Positions 6,618-20,990 of a stretch of DNA of 39,950 bases are shown piece by piece. Under the pieces are notes generated by a model. It made no database searches. It worked only from the letters and a program-made list of their open reading frames with translations, and was not told the DNA's origin. How positions within the stretch are numbered: the stretch's first letter is position 1; every line of letters starts with the position of its first letter. The stretch lies in NCBI GenBank assembly GCA_030668615.1, contig DAOUTQ010000010.1, positions 1-39,950 of the forward strand, given 5' to 3'. A program made the position numbers and the translations under genes. The stretch comes from Bacteroidales bacterium (GTDB lineage Bacteria; Bacteroidota; Bacteroidia; Bacteroidales; UBA12077).

Positions 6618-7412
6618 TTATGTTGGGTTAATTTTGCGGGCTAATTTATAAAATAGTTTAGGTGAAAATTTATGGATATATACCATTAATAATTCTTTAG
6701 CACCTATTAATACTTCTTTTTTATCTTTTCTAATTGCTTTTACATATTGCTTTGCACATTTCTCAACTGATATACCTGTATTAAGTCAATCATCCATTTT
6801 ACCATGCGCAGTACCATCTTTCGTTAGGGCATGCAAAGAAATATTTGTTTTTATACGACCTGGAAATGCGATCAGAACCTTAATATTGTAATCGTAAACT
6901 TCGGATCTAAGAGTTTCGAAAAAACCATGTAAAGCATGTTTTGCTGCAGAATATGCAGATCTTAATGGGAATCCAAATTTACCTGAGATACTGCTTGTGG
7001 CCGCAATATAACCTCCTCCATTTTTTATCATGTAAGGTAATACTGTTTTTGTTAATGCAATAGTTCCAAAGTAATCAATTTACATTATTTTTCTATCAAT
7101 ATCTATTGATGTATCAATAACCATAGATCTCTGACTTATTCCAGCATTATTTACCAAAACATCAATTTGCCCAAACTTTGAGACTAAGCCATCTGTTATG
7201 GTTTGCATCTTATCAATTTCGGTAATATCCAGAAATTGAATAAAACAATCAACACCTAATTTTTCGCACTGCAGTTTAACTTTTTCTAATTCTTGTTGTT
7301 GATTCGATGAAATAATAAGCTTAGCGCCTTGGTGTGCAAACTCATAAGTTAAAGCCTCTCCTATTCCTGAAGAGGCTCCTGTTATCCATACTACTTTATT
7401 CTTGAAAAACAT
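6618..7412 (-). pseudogene. Short-chain dehydrogenase/reductase gene interrupted by two in-frame stop codons
   Basis: Read through, this is a normal 264-codon SDR. It has the Rossmann motif TGASSGIG near residues 11-18, NNAGIS near 89-94, catalytic Ser in SSISGKFG and the YSAAK motif, and an intact C-terminus ending in RKINPT and TAA at 6618-6620. Codon 111 is TAA (7080-7082) and codon 209 is TGA (6786-6788); both lie in the same frame as the start, so there is no frameshift. Each fits one G-to-T change, from GAA (Glu) or GGA (Gly) by comparison with the usual family sequence. The first stop removes the catalytic Tyr/Lys half, so no fragment should be an active SDR. It starts 3 nt after siaC and ends 10 nt before the VOC gene. 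Whether it is a true pseudogene or a sequence error cannot be decided here. Confidence 0.85.
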
Positions 7413-7415
7413 TTC

Positions 7416-7829
7416 TTAATTACGTTGAATCATTATAAAATTAAAAGGCAATGATATCATTTCAGAAAAATCTTCACCGACCTCTTTCATATCATCATCT
7501 CCATCTTCGAAATACCAGTATACTTTTATTTTCAGTTTTTCATCAGTAAAATCCTTTATAATAACCAAAATATCAGATATGAATTTAGCTGATGCCGAAT
7601 TAAAATAATCTAGTTTAAAAGAAAACTTAAAAGGATTTTCATTAAAGGATTCATGATCTCCTTTGTCACTAACTTTCTCAAAATATTTTCTTAGAATATC
7701 TATTATCGGATAATAAAAATCACGAACATTTTCAGGTCTTGAATTACCTTCCATTTCAAATATTTTCTTTTCAGGATCGAAAATTACTTTTGGTGACTTT
7801 TCCTTCGCTTGTATATTTAGTCCTTTCAT
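7416..7829 (-). CDS. siaC: SiaC family regulatory phosphoprotein (DUF1987)
   Basis: This 137-aa protein matches the SiaC/DUF1987 family, whose Pseudomonas member is a phosphoswitch: unphosphorylated SiaC binds and activates a diguanylate cyclase, and the SiaB kinase and SiaA PP2C phosphatase set its state. Features seen are the N-terminal SPKVIFDPEKKIFEMEGNS strand region, RDFYYPIIDILRKYF, and the segment KLDYFNSASAKFI at residues 72-84. Ser78 or Ser80 in that segment is the likely counterpart of the phosphorylated Thr68 of Pseudomonas SiaC; this alignment is from memory. The gene starts 9 nt after the siaB stop, and the broken SDR gene starts 3 nt after its own stop. No SiaA-type phosphatase or GGDEF protein is present in the window, so its partner is unknown. 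Confidence 0.83.
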   Translation of the reverse strand: MKGLNIQAKEKSPKVIFDPEKKIFEMEGNSRPENVRDFYYPIIDILRKYFEKVSDKGDHESFNENPFKFSFKLDYFNSASAKFISDILVIIKDFTDEKLKIKVYWYFEDGDDDMKEVGEDFSEMISLPFNFIMIQRN

Positions 7830-7838
7830 AACAGAAGT

Positions 7839-8357
7839 TTATTTTTTAAAATTTAATTGCATTGCAAAATAAGAAAACTTATCATTAATTTTTTCAAAAT
7901 CAAATTTAATTTTTTGTCTGGTAAGTTTAGACATTACTATTAAACCTAAACCGGCTCCACCCTTTGCTGAAATCTCAGCATTTGAGAGCGATTTTTTGTA
8001 TAATGCATTCACTTCATTTTCATCAAGTTCATTTAGATCGCCTAGCTTTTTCACTATCTCCTCACCATTCTTATTTAACACAATATTTCCGGTATGAATT
8101 AAGAAATTCCCTGCAATTCGTTCAACAATAAATCGTGGAGGATATTGATCTAATAATTCGTGATTTTCTTCATTCAGATCTGAATGTTTTAAAATATTAT
8201 CAAGACATTCAACCGACAGAGAATATACTCTTTTTCTAAGTGTTTTATTCTCTGATTCTTTGTTGTTTAGAAATATCTTTAAATGATGTAACATATCATC
8301 TATTATTTCTAAACTAATAAACCCCTTATGATTAACAACTACATCATAACTTTTCAT
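7839..8357 (-). CDS. siaB: SiaB family protein kinase (GHKL ATPase fold)
   Basis: This 172-aa protein is a small single-domain GHKL-type kinase expected to phosphorylate SiaC. The N box with the Mg-binding Asn is in VECLDNILKHSD, and the glycine-rich ATP lid is GGAGLGLIVMSKL near the C-terminus. There is no phospho-acceptor His domain or membrane segment, as expected for the SiaB family and for anti-sigma-type serine kinases. It is the first gene of the minus-strand operon siaB-siaC-SDR-VOC; its ATG at 8355-8357 faces the PiT transporter across a 267-bp divergent intergenic region. A generic anti-sigma kinase (RsbW/SpoIIAB) is the alternative, but the adjacent DUF1987 gene makes SiaB the better call. 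Confidence 0.82.
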   Translation of the reverse strand: MKSYDVVVNHKGFISLEIIDDMLHHLKIFLNNKESENKTLRKRVYSLSVECLDNILKHSDLNEENHELLDQYPPRFIVERIAGNFLIHTGNIVLNKNGEEIVKKLGDLNELDENEVNALYKKSLSNAEISAKGGAGLGLIVMSKLTRQKIKFDFEKINDKFSYFAMQLNFKK

Positions 8358-8521: not shown

Positions 8522-8565
8522 TTAACATTAACTTAACATTGATTTAATTAAAACTTAACTTAAAA
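8522..8565 (+). promoter_or_regulatory. Putative Pho box: four 11-bp direct repeats upstream of the PiT gene
   Basis: TTAAC-type repeats recur with an exact 11-bp period: TTAACATTAAC (8522), TTAACATTGAT (8533), TTAATTAAAAC (8544) and TTAACTTAAAA (8555). An 11-bp direct-repeat layout is how PhoB/OmpR-family regulators bind in tandem. A block at 8528-8548 matches 19915-19935, upstream of the porin gene, at 20 of 21 positions (consensus TTAACTTAACATTRATTTAA). The neighbouring genes are a phosphate transporter and PhoR/PhoB-like regulators, so PhoB binding is the natural inference. The exact motif is not taken from a database. Confidence 0.62.
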
Positions 8566-8591: not shown

Positions 8592-8599
8592 TACTTTTG
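8592..8599 (+). promoter_or_regulatory. -7 promoter element TACTTTTG for the PiT gene
   Basis: TACTTTTG matches the Bacteroidota sigma-A -7 consensus TAnnTTTG. No TTTG-like -33 element lies about 20 bp upstream; the 11-bp repeats end 26 bp upstream instead, as expected for an activator-dependent promoter. The predicted start leaves a leader of roughly 20 nt before the ATG at 8625. Confidence 0.5.
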
Positions 8600-8624: not shown

Positions 8625-10883
8625 ATGGAAAATTTTTACATTATTCTTGTTGTAATACTCTTTGCATTAGCTATTTCCGATTTAATTGTGGGAGTAAGTA
8701 ATGATGCTGTTAACTTTTTAAATTCAGCAATTGGATCAAAAGTAGCACCACGTTATGTTATTATGATAATAGCTAGTATTGGGATTTTGGTTGGAACAAC
8801 GTTTTCAAGTGGAATGATGGAAGTTGCCAGAAAAGGTATTTTTCATCCTGATCAATTCTATTTTTCGGAAATAATGGTCATATTTCTTGCTGTTATGCTT
8901 ACCGATGTTGTATTGCTTGATGTTTTTAATACTTTAGGATTACCTACATCTACTACAGTTTCAATAGTATTCGAACTTTTAGGTTCTGCAGTAGCAGTTG
9001 CTTTAATAAAGATTAATCATTTAGGTCAATCGGCTGCAGATTTAGGATTATATATAAATTCTGGTAAAGCACTTGCAATTATATCTGGGATATTGCTCTC
9101 GGTAGTTGTAGCATTCAGCATAGGTGCATTGGTAATGTACATAACCAGATTAGTTTTCTCATTTAATCATAAAAAAACTTTTAGTCGTTTTGGAGCGGTC
9201 TGGGGTGGTATTGCAATTACAGCCATAACATATTTTATATTAATTAAAGGTGCAAAAGGCTCTTCATTCTTATCAGCAGAAACAACAGAATGGATAAAAG
9301 GAAATACTTCATTAATAATACTATATAGTTTTATTGGATGGACAGTTTTACTTCAGTTACTATACTGGATTGTAAAATTAGACATCTTAAAAATGATTGT
9401 TCTTGTAGGTACTTTTGCTCTGGCAATGGCATTTGCAGGTAACGATTTAGTAAACTTTATTGGTGTTCCATTGGCAGGGCTAAAATCATTTCAAACATTT
9501 TTAGCTGATCCGGGATCTGATCCTGATGGATTACTCATGGTAGCCTTAACTGGAAAATCAAAAGCAAATACCTTAATTCTTCTAATTGCTGGACTGGTAA
9601 TGGTAGTAACATTATGGATGTCAAAGAAAGCAAGAAAAGTTACAGAAACGGAACTTAATTTAAGCAGACAAAGCGCAGGAAGCGAACGATTTGGGTCAAG
9701 TCTACTTTCTAGAACAATTGTTAGAACTGCAATGGATATAGGTAATGCTGTAAGTAAAGTTACTCCTAAGGTAATGAAAAAGAGTGTTTCGAAAAGATTT
9801 GACGATTCTACTTATAGAAAAAGTATTAAAACAATGAAAGATGCTCCTTCATTCGATATGGTAAGAGCTTCTGTAAATCTGACCGTTGCAAGTATATTAA
9901 TTTCTTTTGCCACTTCGTTAAAACTGCCGTTATCAACAACTTATGTGACTTTTATGGTTGCAATGGGAACATCTTTAGCTGACAAGGCCTGGGGACGAGA
10001 AAGTGCAGTATACAGAATTACAGGTGTTATTGCGGTAATTGGAGGTTGGTTTATGACAGCATTAACTGCGTTTACTGTTGCATTTATTATAGCCTTGGTT
10101 ATAAGTTGGGGTGGAGCGATAGCTATTGGTGTATTTGTTTTACTTGCATTATATACTGTAATGCGTACACACACTTCATTTCATAAGAAAGAAGCTAGAA
10201 AACACCTGATTAAAAGACTTGATGACGACGAATTACAAACAGATAACATTATGACTAAATGCTCTCTTGAAGTAAGAAGGATGTTAAAGTCGGTGGTAAA
10301 TGTATTTAATGAAACTGTAGTAGGTTTAACTAATGAAGATCGAAAATCACTTAAAAATGTATGTAAGGAAGTTGACGAGTTAAACGCAGAAGCAAAACTC
10401 TTAAAGAATAATGTTCACAATACTTTATTAAAACTACAAGAAGCAGAAGGAGAAACAGGACACTATTATGTACAGGTAATTGACTATTTAAGGGAAATGG
10501 CTCATGCTTTATCCTTTATCTCACACCCTAGTTTTGATCATGTTGATAATAATCATAAACCATTGCTTAAAATTCAAATTGATGAATTAAATGAACTCAA
10601 TAAAAGTATTACTGATTTATTTGAAACAATAATACTTACAATCGAGAAAAATGAATTTGATAATATTCCTGGATTAATTGAAAAGCAACAAATCATTTTA
10701 GACTCACTTAAAGAAGGTCGTAAAAACCAAATTAAAAGAATAAAAAGTGATGAAGCAGGAACTAGAAATAGTATTTTGTATCTTGGAATTATGAATGAAA
10801 TAAAGAATTTCTTATTACAATCAATAAATCTGGTAAAAGCACAAAGAGACTTTATTGAATACCAAATGAATAATAAAGAATAA
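8625..10883 (+). CDS. pit: PiT-family inorganic phosphate transporter with PhoU-like C-terminal domain
   Basis: This is a 752-aa inner-membrane transporter for phosphate, probably symported with a cation. The two PiT signature repeats are present: SDLIVGVSNDAVNFLNSAIG near residues 18-37 and FAGNDLVNFIGVPLAG near 270-285, each with the conserved ND. The motif GLPTSTTVS and its second copy KLPLSTTYVTF complete the inverted-repeat fold. Membrane segments fill residues 1 to about 335 and 410-515. From about 520 to the end the protein is soluble, helical and PhoU-like (MTKCSLEVRRMLKSVVNVFNE), which may gate transport. Such long PiT-PhoU fusions are usual in Bacteroidota. The upstream 11-bp repeats suggest phosphate regulation. 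A strong terminator follows, and a PhoR-like kinase is next downstream. Confidence 0.92.
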   Translation: MENFYIILVVILFALAISDLIVGVSNDAVNFLNSAIGSKVAPRYVIMIIASIGILVGTTFSSGMMEVARKGIFHPDQFYFSEIMVIFLAVMLTDVVLLDVFNTLGLPTSTTVSIVFELLGSAVAVALIKINHLGQSAADLGLYINSGKALAIISGILLSVVVAFSIGALVMYITRLVFSFNHKKTFSRFGAVWGGIAITAITYFILIKGAKGSSFLSAETTEWIKGNTSLIILYSFIGWTVLLQLLYWIVKLDILKMIVLVGTFALAMAFAGNDLVNFIGVPLAGLKSFQTFLADPGSDPDGLLMVALTGKSKANTLILLIAGLVMVVTLWMSKKARKVTETELNLSRQSAGSERFGSSLLSRTIVRTAMDIGNAVSKVTPKVMKKSVSKRFDDSTYRKSIKTMKDAPSFDMVRASVNLTVASILISFATSLKLPLSTTYVTFMVAMGTSLADKAWGRESAVYRITGVIAVIGGWFMTALTAFTVAFIIALVISWGGAIAIGVFVLLALYTVMRTHTSFHKKEARKHLIKRLDDDELQTDNIMTKCSLEVRRMLKSVVNVFNETVVGLTNEDRKSLKNVCKEVDELNAEAKLLKNNVHNTLLKLQEAEGETGHYYVQVIDYLREMAHALSFISHPSFDHVDNNHKPLLKIQIDELNELNKSITDLFETIILTIEKNEFDNIPGLIEKQQIILDSLKEGRKNQIKRIKSDEAGTRNSILYLGIMNEIKNFLLQSINLVKAQRDFIEYQMNNKE

Positions 10884-11059: not shown

Positions 11060-12835
11060 ATGACGAAAAGATATTCATTTAAAAGAAAATTGTTTTTATA
11101 CTTTTTTACGGTATTCCTTGCATTTACTGTAGCTATATTATTGTTTCAATACTCAAGAGAAAAAAGGTATAGAACGGATCAATTAAATAATACCCTAAAT
11201 AGTATAACACAAATTACTCACAACTATATTAAAAGTAATTTAATCCCAGAAACTGAAAATTGGGATATATTAGATTCTATAGTAAAGATTCTTCCACGAA
11301 ATGATGTGAGAATAACAATAGTTGATATAAAAGGCTTAGTTAATTATGACAGTTCTGTTGAGGATTATCGCTCAATGGAAAATCATAAAGAAAGACCGGA
11401 AATTCAAAAATCTGTTTATAGTGAATTTGGTACAAATATTAGGAAATCAGCCACAACAGGCACAAGTTATTATTATTACTCTCAATATTTTGAAAAATAC
11501 TTTGTTCGTACTGCAGTTGTGTATGATATTAAAGTAAAAAGCTTTTTAAAAGCCGAAAGATTATTTCTTTTATTTATAGCATTTACCTTCTTTGTATTTT
11601 GGATCGTATTAGATGTAGTAACAAGCAAATTCGGTAAATCAGTTTCTAAACTTAAAGATTTTGCCATAAAAGTTAATCAAGATAAAAAGTATGATCTCGA
11701 TTTTCGTTTCCCGAAAGACGAGCTTGGTGTAATAAGTAATCAGATTGTACAAATATACCAGAATCTTAAGGAAGCTAAAGATGAAATTAATATAGAAAAA
11801 GAAAAGCTATTTAATCACTTAGATGTATTGCATGAAGGTGTTGCATTCTTTTCTCCCGAGAGAAGTAAAACATTAATAAACAGTCACTTTATGCAGTATA
11901 TGAATATTATTTCTAATCAGTTATCTATTACAGCTGATGACTTTTTTGGTTTTAAAGAATTTAAACCTGTTGAAAAATTTCTTGATCAAAATACAAAAGG
12001 AGACATAAGTACAGTTCAGGAACTTCCTCGACTTGAATTTAAATTAGATAAAAGTGGGAAATATTTTAAAATTCAATGTGTAATTTTTCATGATAAAATC
12101 TTTGAAGTAATTATTACTGATATTACAAAGCTTGAAAAAAACAGGCTGATCAAACAACAAATGACCTCAAATATTGCGCATGAATTAAAAACTCCTGTTA
12201 CATCAATTAATGGTTATCTTGAAACAATCTTAGATGATCCCAATATTGAAGCCGAAAAGAAAAATCATTTTATTGAAAGAGCCAATGTACAAGCAACCAG
12301 ATTAGCAGATTTAATTAATGATATTGTTATATTAAATAAAATTGAAGAAGCAGGTGAGCATTTTGCTTTTGAAAAAATTAATATTTCAAAACTAATACTT
12401 GAAGTTAAAGATGAATTTGAGACTGCTATAGAAAAGAAAAAGATGAATCTTAATGTTGACTTAAAGGAAGATTCAAATGTAGATGGTAACAGACCTTTAA
12501 TTTTATCTATATTTAGAAATTTGATTGAAAATGCTATTAATTATGCAGGAGAGAAAACCGAAATACTTGTTAATCTCTACAATGAAGATAATAAATTCTA
12601 TTACTTTTCATTTTCGGATAATGGAATTGGAATTCCTGAAGAACATTTAACAAGAATATTTGAACGATTTTATAGAATTGGTTCAGACAGATCTCGAAAG
12701 CTAGGAGGTACGGGTTTAGGATTGGCTATCGTGAAAAATGCAGTAGTATTGCATAAAGGAGAGATTTCAGTTAGGAATTCAAAAAACGGTGGTACTGAAT
12801 TCTTATTCACGCTTCCAAAATCAGATAAAAAGTAA
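11060..12835 (+). CDS. phoR: PhoR-like membrane sensor histidine kinase
   Basis: This 591-aa kinase has two membrane segments at about residues 11-29 and 167-187, enclosing a periplasmic domain of about 135 aa. A HAMP-like linker (190-240) and a divergent PAS-like domain (245-360) follow. The HisKA H box is NIAHELKTPVTS with His374, and the HATPase has an N box with Asn487/Asn491, G1 DNGIGIP (520-526) and G2 GGTGLGL (549-555). This is the architecture of Bacteroidota PhoR, which monitors phosphate state and phosphorylates PhoB. The call to PhoR rests on architecture plus the adjacent PiT gene and the PhoB-like gene; an unrelated envelope-stress kinase is possible. Unusually, the regulator gene is convergent rather than in the same operon. 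Confidence 0.78.
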   Translation: MTKRYSFKRKLFLYFFTVFLAFTVAILLFQYSREKRYRTDQLNNTLNSITQITHNYIKSNLIPETENWDILDSIVKILPRNDVRITIVDIKGLVNYDSSVEDYRSMENHKERPEIQKSVYSEFGTNIRKSATTGTSYYYYSQYFEKYFVRTAVVYDIKVKSFLKAERLFLLFIAFTFFVFWIVLDVVTSKFGKSVSKLKDFAIKVNQDKKYDLDFRFPKDELGVISNQIVQIYQNLKEAKDEINIEKEKLFNHLDVLHEGVAFFSPERSKTLINSHFMQYMNIISNQLSITADDFFGFKEFKPVEKFLDQNTKGDISTVQELPRLEFKLDKSGKYFKIQCVIFHDKIFEVIITDITKLEKNRLIKQQMTSNIAHELKTPVTSINGYLETILDDPNIEAEKKNHFIERANVQATRLADLINDIVILNKIEEAGEHFAFEKINISKLILEVKDEFETAIEKKKMNLNVDLKEDSNVDGNRPLILSIFRNLIENAINYAGEKTEILVNLYNEDNKFYYFSFSDNGIGIPEEHLTRIFERFYRIGSDRSRKLGGTGLGLAIVKNAVVLHKGEISVRNSKNGGTEFLFTLPKSDKK

Positions 12836-12923: not shown

Positions 12924-13619
12924 TTAATTTTTAAACTTATATCCTACACCTTTAATTGTTTTTATATGTTCATCTCCAATCTTTTCACGTAATTTTCTAA
13001 TATGTACATCAATAGTCCTTTCTCCAACTACAATATCATCTCCCCATACAGAACTAAAAATTTCATCTCTTGTAAATACTCTATCTGGTTTTGATATTAA
13101 AAGTACAAGTAATTGAAATTCCTTTTTAGGTAATACTAACTCTTCTTCATCCCTTGTTACAACGTATCTTTCCTTATCAATAATCAAGTTAGATTGTTTA
13201 ATTATGAGATCATTATCTATGCTTTTATGATCACTATCTTTAAACCTTTTTAGTAAAGCTCTTAATCTACTTATTAAAACTTTTGGTTTAACTGGTTTTG
13301 TAATATAATCATCTGCACCGGCATCAAAGCCGGCTATTTGTGAATAATCCTCTCCTCTTGCAGTTAAAAAAGCAATTATTGTATTCTGAAACTTTTTATC
13401 TTGTCGTAGAATTTCGCAAGCTTCTATACCGTCCATTTCAGGCATCATTACATCAAGAATAATTAAATGAGGATTAACCTTTTTAGCAAGCTCAATAGCT
13501 TCTTTTCCATTTTGAGCAGTATATACCTCAAATCCCTCTTTTTGGATATTATAACTTAAAAATTCAAGAATATCAGGTTCATCATCAACAAGTAATATTT
13601 TAAAATCTTTATTATTCAT
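12924..13619 (-). CDS. phoB: PhoB-like OmpR-family response regulator
   Basis: This 231-aa regulator has a receiver domain at residues 5-120 with acidic pocket Asp12/Asp13, phospho-acceptor Asp56 in LIILDVMMPEMDG, Thr86 and Lys108 in YITKPVKP. A winged-helix DNA-binding domain fills about 132-231, with the recognition region RTIDVHIRKLREKIGDEHIKTIKGVGYKF. This class binds direct repeats with an 11-bp period as a tandem dimer, which agrees with the repeats found at 8522 and 19920. The gene is convergent to phoR, 88 nt away. It begins 2 nt after the stop of the M23 peptidase gene, so the two form one transcript. Assignment to PhoB rather than another OmpR-type regulator is inferred from the neighbouring kinase and transporter. 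Confidence 0.78.
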   Translation of the reverse strand: MNNKDFKILLVDDEPDILEFLSYNIQKEGFEVYTAQNGKEAIELAKKVNPHLIILDVMMPEMDGIEACEILRQDKKFQNTIIAFLTARGEDYSQIAGFDAGADDYITKPVKPKVLISRLRALLKRFKDSDHKSIDNDLIIKQSNLIIDKERYVVTRDEEELVLPKKEFQLLVLLISKPDRVFTRDEIFSSVWGDDIVVGERTIDVHIRKLREKIGDEHIKTIKGVGYKFKN

Positions 13620-19914: not shown

Positions 19915-19941
19915 TTAACTTAACATTAATTTAATATTAAA
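19915..19941 (+). promoter_or_regulatory. Putative Pho box upstream of the porin gene
   Basis: Two direct repeats with an 11-bp period, TTAACATTAAT (19920) and TTAATATTAAA (19931), are preceded by another TTAAC at 19915. Positions 19915-19935 match 8528-8548 upstream of the PiT gene at 20 of 21 bases. A -7-like TTAATTTG lies at 19957-19964 without any -33 match. The distance from the shared block to the -7 octamer differs from that of the PiT promoter by 22 bp, two repeat units. Confidence 0.6.
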
Positions 19942-19997
19942 TAGATTTATTCTGTTTTAATTTGCAAATAAAAACATTTTCTAATAAAAACCGAAAA

Positions 19998-20990
19998 ATG
20001 AAAATAAACATTCTGTTTTTGCTGACACTTGTTGCTTTTCTAGTACTTTTTCCCAACACGCTGTTTGCGCAGGACGAAGAAAAAAAAATTGAACCAACAG
20101 GCAATGTCTATGGTGTTCTTTTTACAAACTTTCATTCAGATTTTATAAGTGAGAACTCCGCTTTCGAAGTACAAAGAACTTATTTGGGTTACAAATATCA
20201 GTATGACAATAATTTTTCGGCTAATTTAAAGATCGATATTGCAAGTAACGTAAGTGATGCAAAAAGATATGCATACTTTAAAAATGCTCATTTGAGCTAT
20301 AAATATAAAAACCTTAGCATAAGCTTTGGTTTGATTGATTCATACATGTTTAAAACACACGAGAAATTTTTTGGCAAAAGATATATTTATAAATCATTCC
20401 TCGATAAAAACAAATTTGGTCCGAGTGCTGATTTGGGAGCAAGTTTTTTGTATAAGTTTAATAATAAATTGAACGTAGATTTTTCAGTATTGAACGGAGA
20501 AGGTTATTCTAACTTACAGCTTGATAATACATTTAAAGCCGCACTGGGTTTATCTTATAATCCTGTCGAAAACTTTTATTCAAGAATTTACATTGATTAT
20601 TCTGAAAAAACATATACTCAAGCAACATACGCTTTCTTTTTAGGATATAAACAAACAAATAAATTTAGTCTTGGCGCTGAATATAACTATCAAACTAATA
20701 ATGACTTTTCTAACAATTACGATTTGTTTGGTTATTCTCTTTACGGGACTGTTAACATTACGGAAAAATGGGAGCTTTTTGCACGTCTTGATGATCTGAA
20801 ATCAAATATACCTTCTGGAGAAACAGATAACTGGAATCTTTCGAAAGATGGAAATACTCTTATATCGGGTATACAATTTTCGCCTATAAAGAAAGTTAAA
20901 CTTGCCCTAAATTATCAAGGTTTTATGTGTGATGATACATACAAAGATGATATATCGGCAATTTATTTCAACCTCGAATATAATTTTTAA
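19998..20990 (+). CDS. Outer-membrane porin-like beta-barrel protein, probably phosphate-responsive
   Basis: This is an outer-membrane beta-barrel of 330 aa. The ATG at 19998 is chosen over a TTG at 19962 since it gives a clean signal peptide: MKINILFLLTLVAFLVLFPN with cleavage after LFA, before QDEE. The mature part has alternating aromatic and polar strands (for example FEVQRTYLGYKYQYDNNFSA and KVKLALNYQGFMCDD) and ends in an aromatic residue (LEYNF), a barrel-assembly signal. It resembles the phosphate-selective porin O/P group in shape, but I cannot confirm the ion preference. The repeat block upstream is nearly identical to the one before the PiT transporter, so it is probably made when phosphate is scarce. 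It is convergent with the DUF4301 gene, with 3 nt between stops. Confidence 0.78.
   Translation: MKINILFLLTLVAFLVLFPNTLFAQDEEKKIEPTGNVYGVLFTNFHSDFISENSAFEVQRTYLGYKYQYDNNFSANLKIDIASNVSDAKRYAYFKNAHLSYKYKNLSISFGLIDSYMFKTHEKFFGKRYIYKSFLDKNKFGPSADLGASFLYKFNNKLNVDFSVLNGEGYSNLQLDNTFKAALGLSYNPVENFYSRIYIDYSEKTYTQATYAFFLGYKQTNKFSLGAEYNYQTNNDFSNNYDLFGYSLYGTVNITEKWELFARLDDLKSNIPSGETDNWNLSKDGNTLISGIQFSPIKKVKLALNYQGFMCDDTYKDDISAIYFNLEYNF

Follow-up and report, generated by a model that had tools for sequence, protein, structure and literature searches.

A probable Pho box of 11-bp TTAACA-type repeats upstream of a PiT phosphate transporter gene in a Bacteroidales genome

The window analysed in this study is a stretch of 39,950 nucleotides from a Bacteroidales bacterium (assembly GCA_030668615.1, contig DAOUTQ010000010.1), the genome of which comprises 3.3 Mb in 239 contigs. 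The window carries a gene for a PiT phosphate transporter, whose closest named relatives are encoded by Bacteroidales MAGs (82-85% identity). Downstream of the PiT gene lie a histidine kinase gene and then a response regulator gene that faces it, while tandem repeats and a promoter box are located upstream, and a second site with such repeats precedes a porin gene (Table 1). Divergent from the PiT promoter is a gene pair for SiaC and DUF6272 (7416-8357, minus strand), which we take to be SiaB/SiaC-like. A short-chain dehydrogenase gene (6786-7412, minus strand) is apparently split into an N-terminal half (7080-7412) and a likely C-terminal part (6786-7031), which looks like a frameshift or an assembly error.

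Table 1. Features of the window that are discussed in the text, with the basis of each assignment.
Feature	Coordinates	Strand	Basis
Repeat 1, TTAACATTAAC, strong half-site	8522..8532	+	direct reading; conserved in PiT orthologues
Repeat 2, TTAACATTGAT, strong half-site	8533..8543	+	direct reading; conserved in PiT orthologues
Repeat 3, TTAATTAAAAC, TTAA part conserved	8544..8554	+	direct reading; PiT orthologues; register
Repeat 4, TTAACTTAAAA, weakly conserved position	8555..8565	+	direct reading; PiT sites
-7 promoter box, TACTTTTG	8592..8599	+	fits TANNTTTG; register with the repeats
PiT phosphate transporter gene	8625..10883	+	PHO4; weak PhoU match below cut-off
phoR, sensor kinase gene	11060..12835	+	NCBIfam NF053855, 682 bits (cut-off 500)
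phoB-like response regulator gene	12924..13619	-	NF053854, 215 bits (cut-off 270); top PhoB match in the genome
Second candidate Pho box, TTAACATTAAT TTAATATTAAA	19920..19941	+	extra TTAAC at 19915; R1 E 0.007, second best in the genome
-7-like box, TTAATTTG	19957..19964	+	offset of 37 bp relative to 19920; single mismatch to TANNTTTG
Outer-membrane porin gene	19998..20990	+	model like that of a 16-stranded porin; OprP at rank 2 of the fold search

A first-pass annotation of this DNA had described four TTAA repeats in exact 11-bp steps, and these are indeed seen at 8522, 8533, 8544 and 8555. The half-sites, of 6-7 bp, are direct repeats. The octamer TACTTTTG downstream of them fits TANNTTTG, which we take to be the -7 consensus and which was used for calling boxes; the starts of repeats 1 to 4 lie 70, 59, 48 and 37 bp from it, respectively. 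In such promoters, the -7 box has a -33 element as its upstream partner. This partner had been reported to be lacking here, and accordingly neither TTTG nor TTG was found 27-15 bp upstream of the octamer.

The pattern TTAAC-N6-TTAAC-N6-TTAA, with at most two mismatches, matched the window 11 times (some places being counted on both strands), versus 3.1 +/- 1.8 matches expected, and none of 100 shuffles reached 11; the sole mismatch-free match in the window is the one at 8522. Among the 57 copies of TTAACA on both strands of the window, there is a single same-strand pair within 30 bp, namely 8522/8533, and it is spaced by 11 bp. In the whole genome, the three-repeat pattern occurs twice without mismatch, i.e., in the window and at C223:16602, and its reversed control does not occur. 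The C223 site was rejected as a promoter, as it lies between two opposite-strand genes and heads only an open reading frame (ORF) that is antisense to one of them. Further genome matches, with two mismatches, were noted in C46 and C63. For TTAACA-N5-TTAACA-N5-TTAA with at most two mismatches, 29 matches were counted genome-wide versus 37 for the reversed control; loose matches therefore carry no meaning and only near-perfect sites are informative. Since loose counts fail to separate the signal from the reversed control, a profile was used for the genome searches described below.

PiT orthologues were taken from 80 loci of named genomes and from relatives (PiT is present in 43 of 59 genomes, own included), some of the named and relatives' loci being of the same genome. 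Upstream regions were obtained for 75 of the 80 named loci, five being dropped on account of a cut or short region before PiT or an incomplete match, and for 29 loci of relatives; of these 104 regions, four were too short and 100 were scored. The pattern TTAACA-N5-TTAACA-N5-TTAA was present with at least 14 of its 16 letters in 55 of the 100 regions versus none for the reversed pattern, the other 45 scoring under 14, and in 62 regions at most one of 100 dinucleotide shuffles scored as well. The sites start mostly 80-115 bp upstream of the start codon. Fifty-three sites were kept, and 41 were left after the removal of near-copies. Conservation of the letters used in choosing the sites is inflated by that selection, but letters that played no part in it are conserved as well, e.g., A at position 9 (32 of 41 sites), T at positions 17 and 18 (29 and 26 of 41) and, in the register of the fourth repeat, two A's (30 and 32 of 41).

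The distance between repeats and promoter box was assessed in PiT upstream regions, 101 in number with the window's included, of which 85 are non-redundant; 62 of the 85 have a site by score and 23 have none. Perfect TANNTTTG boxes were sought 15-95 bp past the site, and 35 were found across the 62 regions, at offsets of 34-37 bp (5 boxes), 47-49 bp (11), 59 bp (13) and 69-70 bp (6). The offset equals 4 modulo 11 for 27 of the 35 boxes and is within 1 bp of this value for 33; the corresponding vector strength, 0.915, was reached by 0 of 100,000 random sets. No such register was found for three control words of similar make-up, each of which matches only 2-5 times. TTTG stands at the -33 place in just two of the 35 promoters. 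This register and the rarity of TTTG indicate that the repeats are a ladder fitting the helix, with its last steps at the -33 place; at these promoters, the array thus stands where an upstream (-35/-33) element would be expected, and its phase on the helix is constant.

A profile (R1) was derived from 38 of the 41 non-redundant PiT sites, with the window's own site excluded and three sites of doubtful register dropped by eye, and its reversed form (R2) served as the control; in each genome searched, the best 109-150 candidates were scored. In the own genome, the best three R1 matches were the PiT site (E 1.4e-6), the site at 19915 (E 0.007) and C192:2602 (E 0.0126), and the best R2 match had an E of 0.055. 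The C192 match (G000:C192:2602-2633, L176) lies in the atp operon and extends over the beginning of an atpE-like ORF, which is located between atpB and atpF; this match is probably due to chance. Among the best 109-150 candidates scored in this genome, R2 gave 68 matches at E <= 10 versus 44 for R1, so that with the profile, too, information is confined to the strongest matches. No R1 match precedes the window's own phoR or phoB. Across 59 genomes (own included), with the best 109-150 candidates scored in each, R1 gave 53 matches versus 15 for R2 at E <= 0.02 and 28 versus 0 at E < 0.0025, and R1 matches were present in 29 of the 43 genomes with PiT versus three of the 16 without. An enrichment before phosphate genes over chance, as anticipated at first pass, thus survived this comparative form of the test, though most pstS genes are without the motif.

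Sorted by downstream gene, the 53 R1 matches comprise 25 before PiT (the family from which R1 was trained, and partly the training genes themselves), nine before porin genes and 19 others. Neighbours were read for 18 of these 19, the atp site included, the remaining one (G014:C68) being at a contig end. The genes behind these matches include the canonical pstS of G023, a phoB orthologue 79% identical to that of the window, a phoR orthologue 62% identical to that of the window, and the genes for two related barrel-like proteins without a Pfam match. At four places, a small secreted CarbopepD_reg and/or MORN protein is encoded, and these proteins are homologous among themselves. The remaining matches, which may be true or due to chance, precede rpiB (twice), a ResB-like gene, an asparaginase-like gene, a HAMP-protein gene, genes for large secreted proteins, and others. 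The two rpiB-like genes (L235, G002:C104:218; L238, G057:C27:148610) are 60% identical to each other. For the PstS family as a whole, the 30 upstream regions contained one strong (33.1) and one moderate (13.6) site above the controls, and two further sites (10.4 and 8.3) did not stand out from the controls, which scored up to 10.2.

The protein encoded behind the second site of the window has no family in Pfam or NCBIfam, and it was therefore assessed by a structure model and a fold search. The predicted model of 19998-20990 (pLDDT 77, pTM 0.74) is porin-like: DcaP heads the list of fold matches, OprP follows at rank 2 with an E of 3.9e-11, and general porins are numerous among the matches. 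Porin O/P (PF07396) is not matched by the window protein but is matched by two of 12 aligned relatives (best E 1.5e-6). When the porin profile was compared with solved structures, it also matched lysozymes, which was judged spurious. In seven of the 59 genomes, no more than about 300 bp separates an orthologue of the porin gene from PiT, and in six of the 59 such an orthologue adjoins a PstS-like gene (under the family cut-off).

For porin and other promoters, a looser -7 box (5 of 6 letters) was used. Eighteen of 29 porin upstream regions, many of them from close kin, were examined (the other 11 are without a clear site), and the boxes lie at offsets of 26, 37 or 48 bp, with 16 of 17 in register. 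In five of six CarbopepD_reg/MORN promoters, a box stands at an offset of 26, 37 or 59 bp. The offset is 37 bp for phoR, the L019 barrel gene and the window porin, 59 bp for the HAMP-protein gene and 70 bp for the window PiT. For the pstS of G023, there are four candidate boxes, and a single one, at 81 bp, is in register. The G020 MORN gene and the genes for barrel-like proteins in G050 and G048 are out of register, and phoB of G006 and both rpiB genes are without even a looser box.

Downstream genes were also looked at for 14 of the 65 named-locus matches, and similar-looking small proteins were found behind the motif at L017 and L022. Overall, CarbopepD_reg (112-119 aa) and/or MORN-repeat proteins recur behind boxes at L236, L239, L243, L246, L012 (13811), L017 (8282) and L022 (2414), mostly with an in-register -7 box; these uncharacterised proteins are candidates for membership in a phosphate regulon. 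Lipoprotein-like ORFs of L013 (10024) and L022 (7865), which lie behind a box, and of L246 (1-909), which lies beside one, are mutually homologous and have no Pfam match. They possibly resemble the phosphate-responsive lipoproteins of Flavobacterium johnsoniae.

The kinase adjacent to PiT scores 682.4 bits with the model for Bacteroidota-type PhoR (NF053855, cut-off 500). The regulator falls below the cut-offs of the PhoB models, i.e., NF053854 (215.4 bits, cut-off 270) and TIGR02154 (211.8 bits, cut-off 296.2), and is therefore referred to as PhoB-like, outside that equivalog. It is the top PhoB match of its own genome (214.9 bits versus 182.4 for the next), in which four more regulators come within 1e-45 of the PhoB model. 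In eight of 18 other genomes searched, the best PhoB match is located within about 1.1 kb of PiT. Of the adjacent PhoR/PhoB-like pair proposed at first pass, the kinase thus passes the PhoR cut-off, and the regulator is the best PhoB match but scores under the cut-off. The protein encoded at 12924-13619 would be the one that binds the repeats at 8522-8565, an assignment based on the neighbourhood, on the PhoR and PhoB models, and on the motif being found ahead of phoB and phoR orthologues.

The repeats are a genuine and conserved regulatory site in the DNA, and its binder is most likely the phosphate-starvation regulator of the bacterium. The first-pass proposal that the 11-bp repeats ahead of PiT make up a Pho box of the Bacteroidota is strongly supported by the conservation, by the other phosphate genes that the motif precedes (one pstS, one phoB and one phoR besides PiT and porin genes), and by the -7 register. 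Very probably, then, the array is a Pho box, that is, a site for activation by a PhoB-like regulator that would replace the -33 element and respond to phosphate. An activating role is suggested by the in-register position of the repeats, upstream of the -7 box, and by the missing -33 element. Under phosphate shortage, the PhoR kinase would phosphorylate the PhoB-like regulator, which would align head to tail on successive 11-bp TTAACA half-sites that all face the same side of the helix. With its weak half-sites at the downstream end, the array would extend to where a -33 element is missing, such that the bound regulator could aid the main sigma factor at a promoter whose sole good element is the -7 box. 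PiT and the porin gene at 19998 would thereby be turned on, and in relatives also pstS, phoB, phoR, porin genes and genes for small secreted proteins.

Alternatively, the site could serve another OmpR-family regulator (ArcA-like or a paralogue of PhoB) that responds to another signal, with phosphate genes being only part of its targets. The motif of Riemerella anatipestifer PhoP is reported to resemble closely that of E. coli ArcA, and its 583 DAP-seq peaks extend beyond phosphate genes (PMC9603813). The four further regulators of the own genome that match the PhoB model, and the R1 matches before genes without a clear phosphate link (rpiB, ResB-like, asparaginase-like), would also fit such a regulator. 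The clearest R1 matches are nevertheless before phosphate genes, phoB and phoR orthologues included, and the window regulator leads the PhoB matches by 32 bits and has counterparts near PiT in many relatives, which makes another regulator rather unlikely. Less likely still is a Pho box at which the regulator represses PiT in phosphate shortage. PiT proteins are often low-affinity carriers, and PhoB represses Pit genes in some rhizobia; however, in-register repeats upstream of a -7 box that is missing its -33 partner form an activator layout, and the promoters of pstS, phoB, phoR and porin genes share the site. Finally, a chance pattern or an UP-like A+T-rich stretch, to which the very A+T-rich region and the loose genome matches no commoner than the reversed control might point, is highly improbable in view of the 0 of 100 regions for the reversed pattern, the profile controls, the conserved unselected letters and the 11-bp register.

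With a Pho box as the preferred reading, the site can be set beside known systems. The Bacillus subtilis PhoP box, found upstream of Pho promoters, consists of TTAACA-type half-sites that recur every 11 bp or so, and the window repeats have this half-site type and spacing in common with it. B. subtilis, however, belongs to another phylum and has -10/-35 promoters, whereas the window has a TANNTTTG-type -7 box and no -33 element. In E. coli, the Pho box consists of head-to-tail 11-bp PhoB repeats that replace the upstream promoter element. This layout is shared with the window, but the E. coli half-site is CTGTCA rather than TTAACA, and unlike in E. coli the strong pair may sit two to six 11-bp steps (26 to 70 bp) from the -7 box. 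At the Pho boxes of both E. coli and B. subtilis, the activator makes up for the upstream promoter element.

Within the Bacteroidota, a comparable motif belongs to the PhoP/PhoR system of R. anatipestifer: in the portion of the account available, DAP-seq and EMSA identified TTTAACA as the most conserved nucleotides of the motif, and PhoP bound DNA in vitro, including upstream of its own operon, with phosphorylation not being required (PMC9603813). Unlike the present site, that portion describes no 11-bp array, no -7 register and no phosphate-uptake genes, and the term 'pst' is absent from it (PMC9603813). The phoBR cluster of F. johnsoniae contains genes for OprP, a TonB-dependent transporter and lipoproteins; according to the sections at hand, PhoB, the transporter and the lipoproteins respond to phosphate depletion, and the OprP gene beside phoBR is not induced by it (-1.3, not significant) (PMC8115612). 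That work is an expression study, and the text available from it contains neither 'Pho box' nor 'motif' and describes no operator (PMC8115612). Pho boxes are thus a known kind of element, and one Bacteroidota PhoP motif is already published. An earlier suggestion that the operator might be undescribed therefore holds only in part: TTTAACA was already reported for Riemerella PhoP (PMC9603813), and a Bacteroidota Pho box with its repeat structure, its phosphate genes and its -7 register was not found in the open-licence literature. Beyond the Riemerella motif, no Bacteroidota Pho box was found in that literature, which leaves most subscription papers outside and so is weak evidence of absence.

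It is somewhat more probable than not that the site exemplifies a Bacteroidota-specific Pho code, in which arrays of TTAACA half-sites precede a -7 box that has no -33 partner, the strong pair being offset from the box by 26, 37, 48, 59 or 70 bp and thus always in whole 11-bp steps. The regulator would read this distance modulo one repeat and replace the -33 element everywhere, and the regulon would be wider, including the uncharacterised secreted CarbopepD_reg and MORN proteins and the lipoprotein family. With a profile and a sharp register rule, phosphate regulons could be recognised from sequence alone in the Bacteroidota, which are common in guts, soils and sediments. The layout also suggests how an activator works at -7/-33 rather than -10/-35 promoters, and it points to uncharacterised secreted proteins as phosphate-starvation genes.
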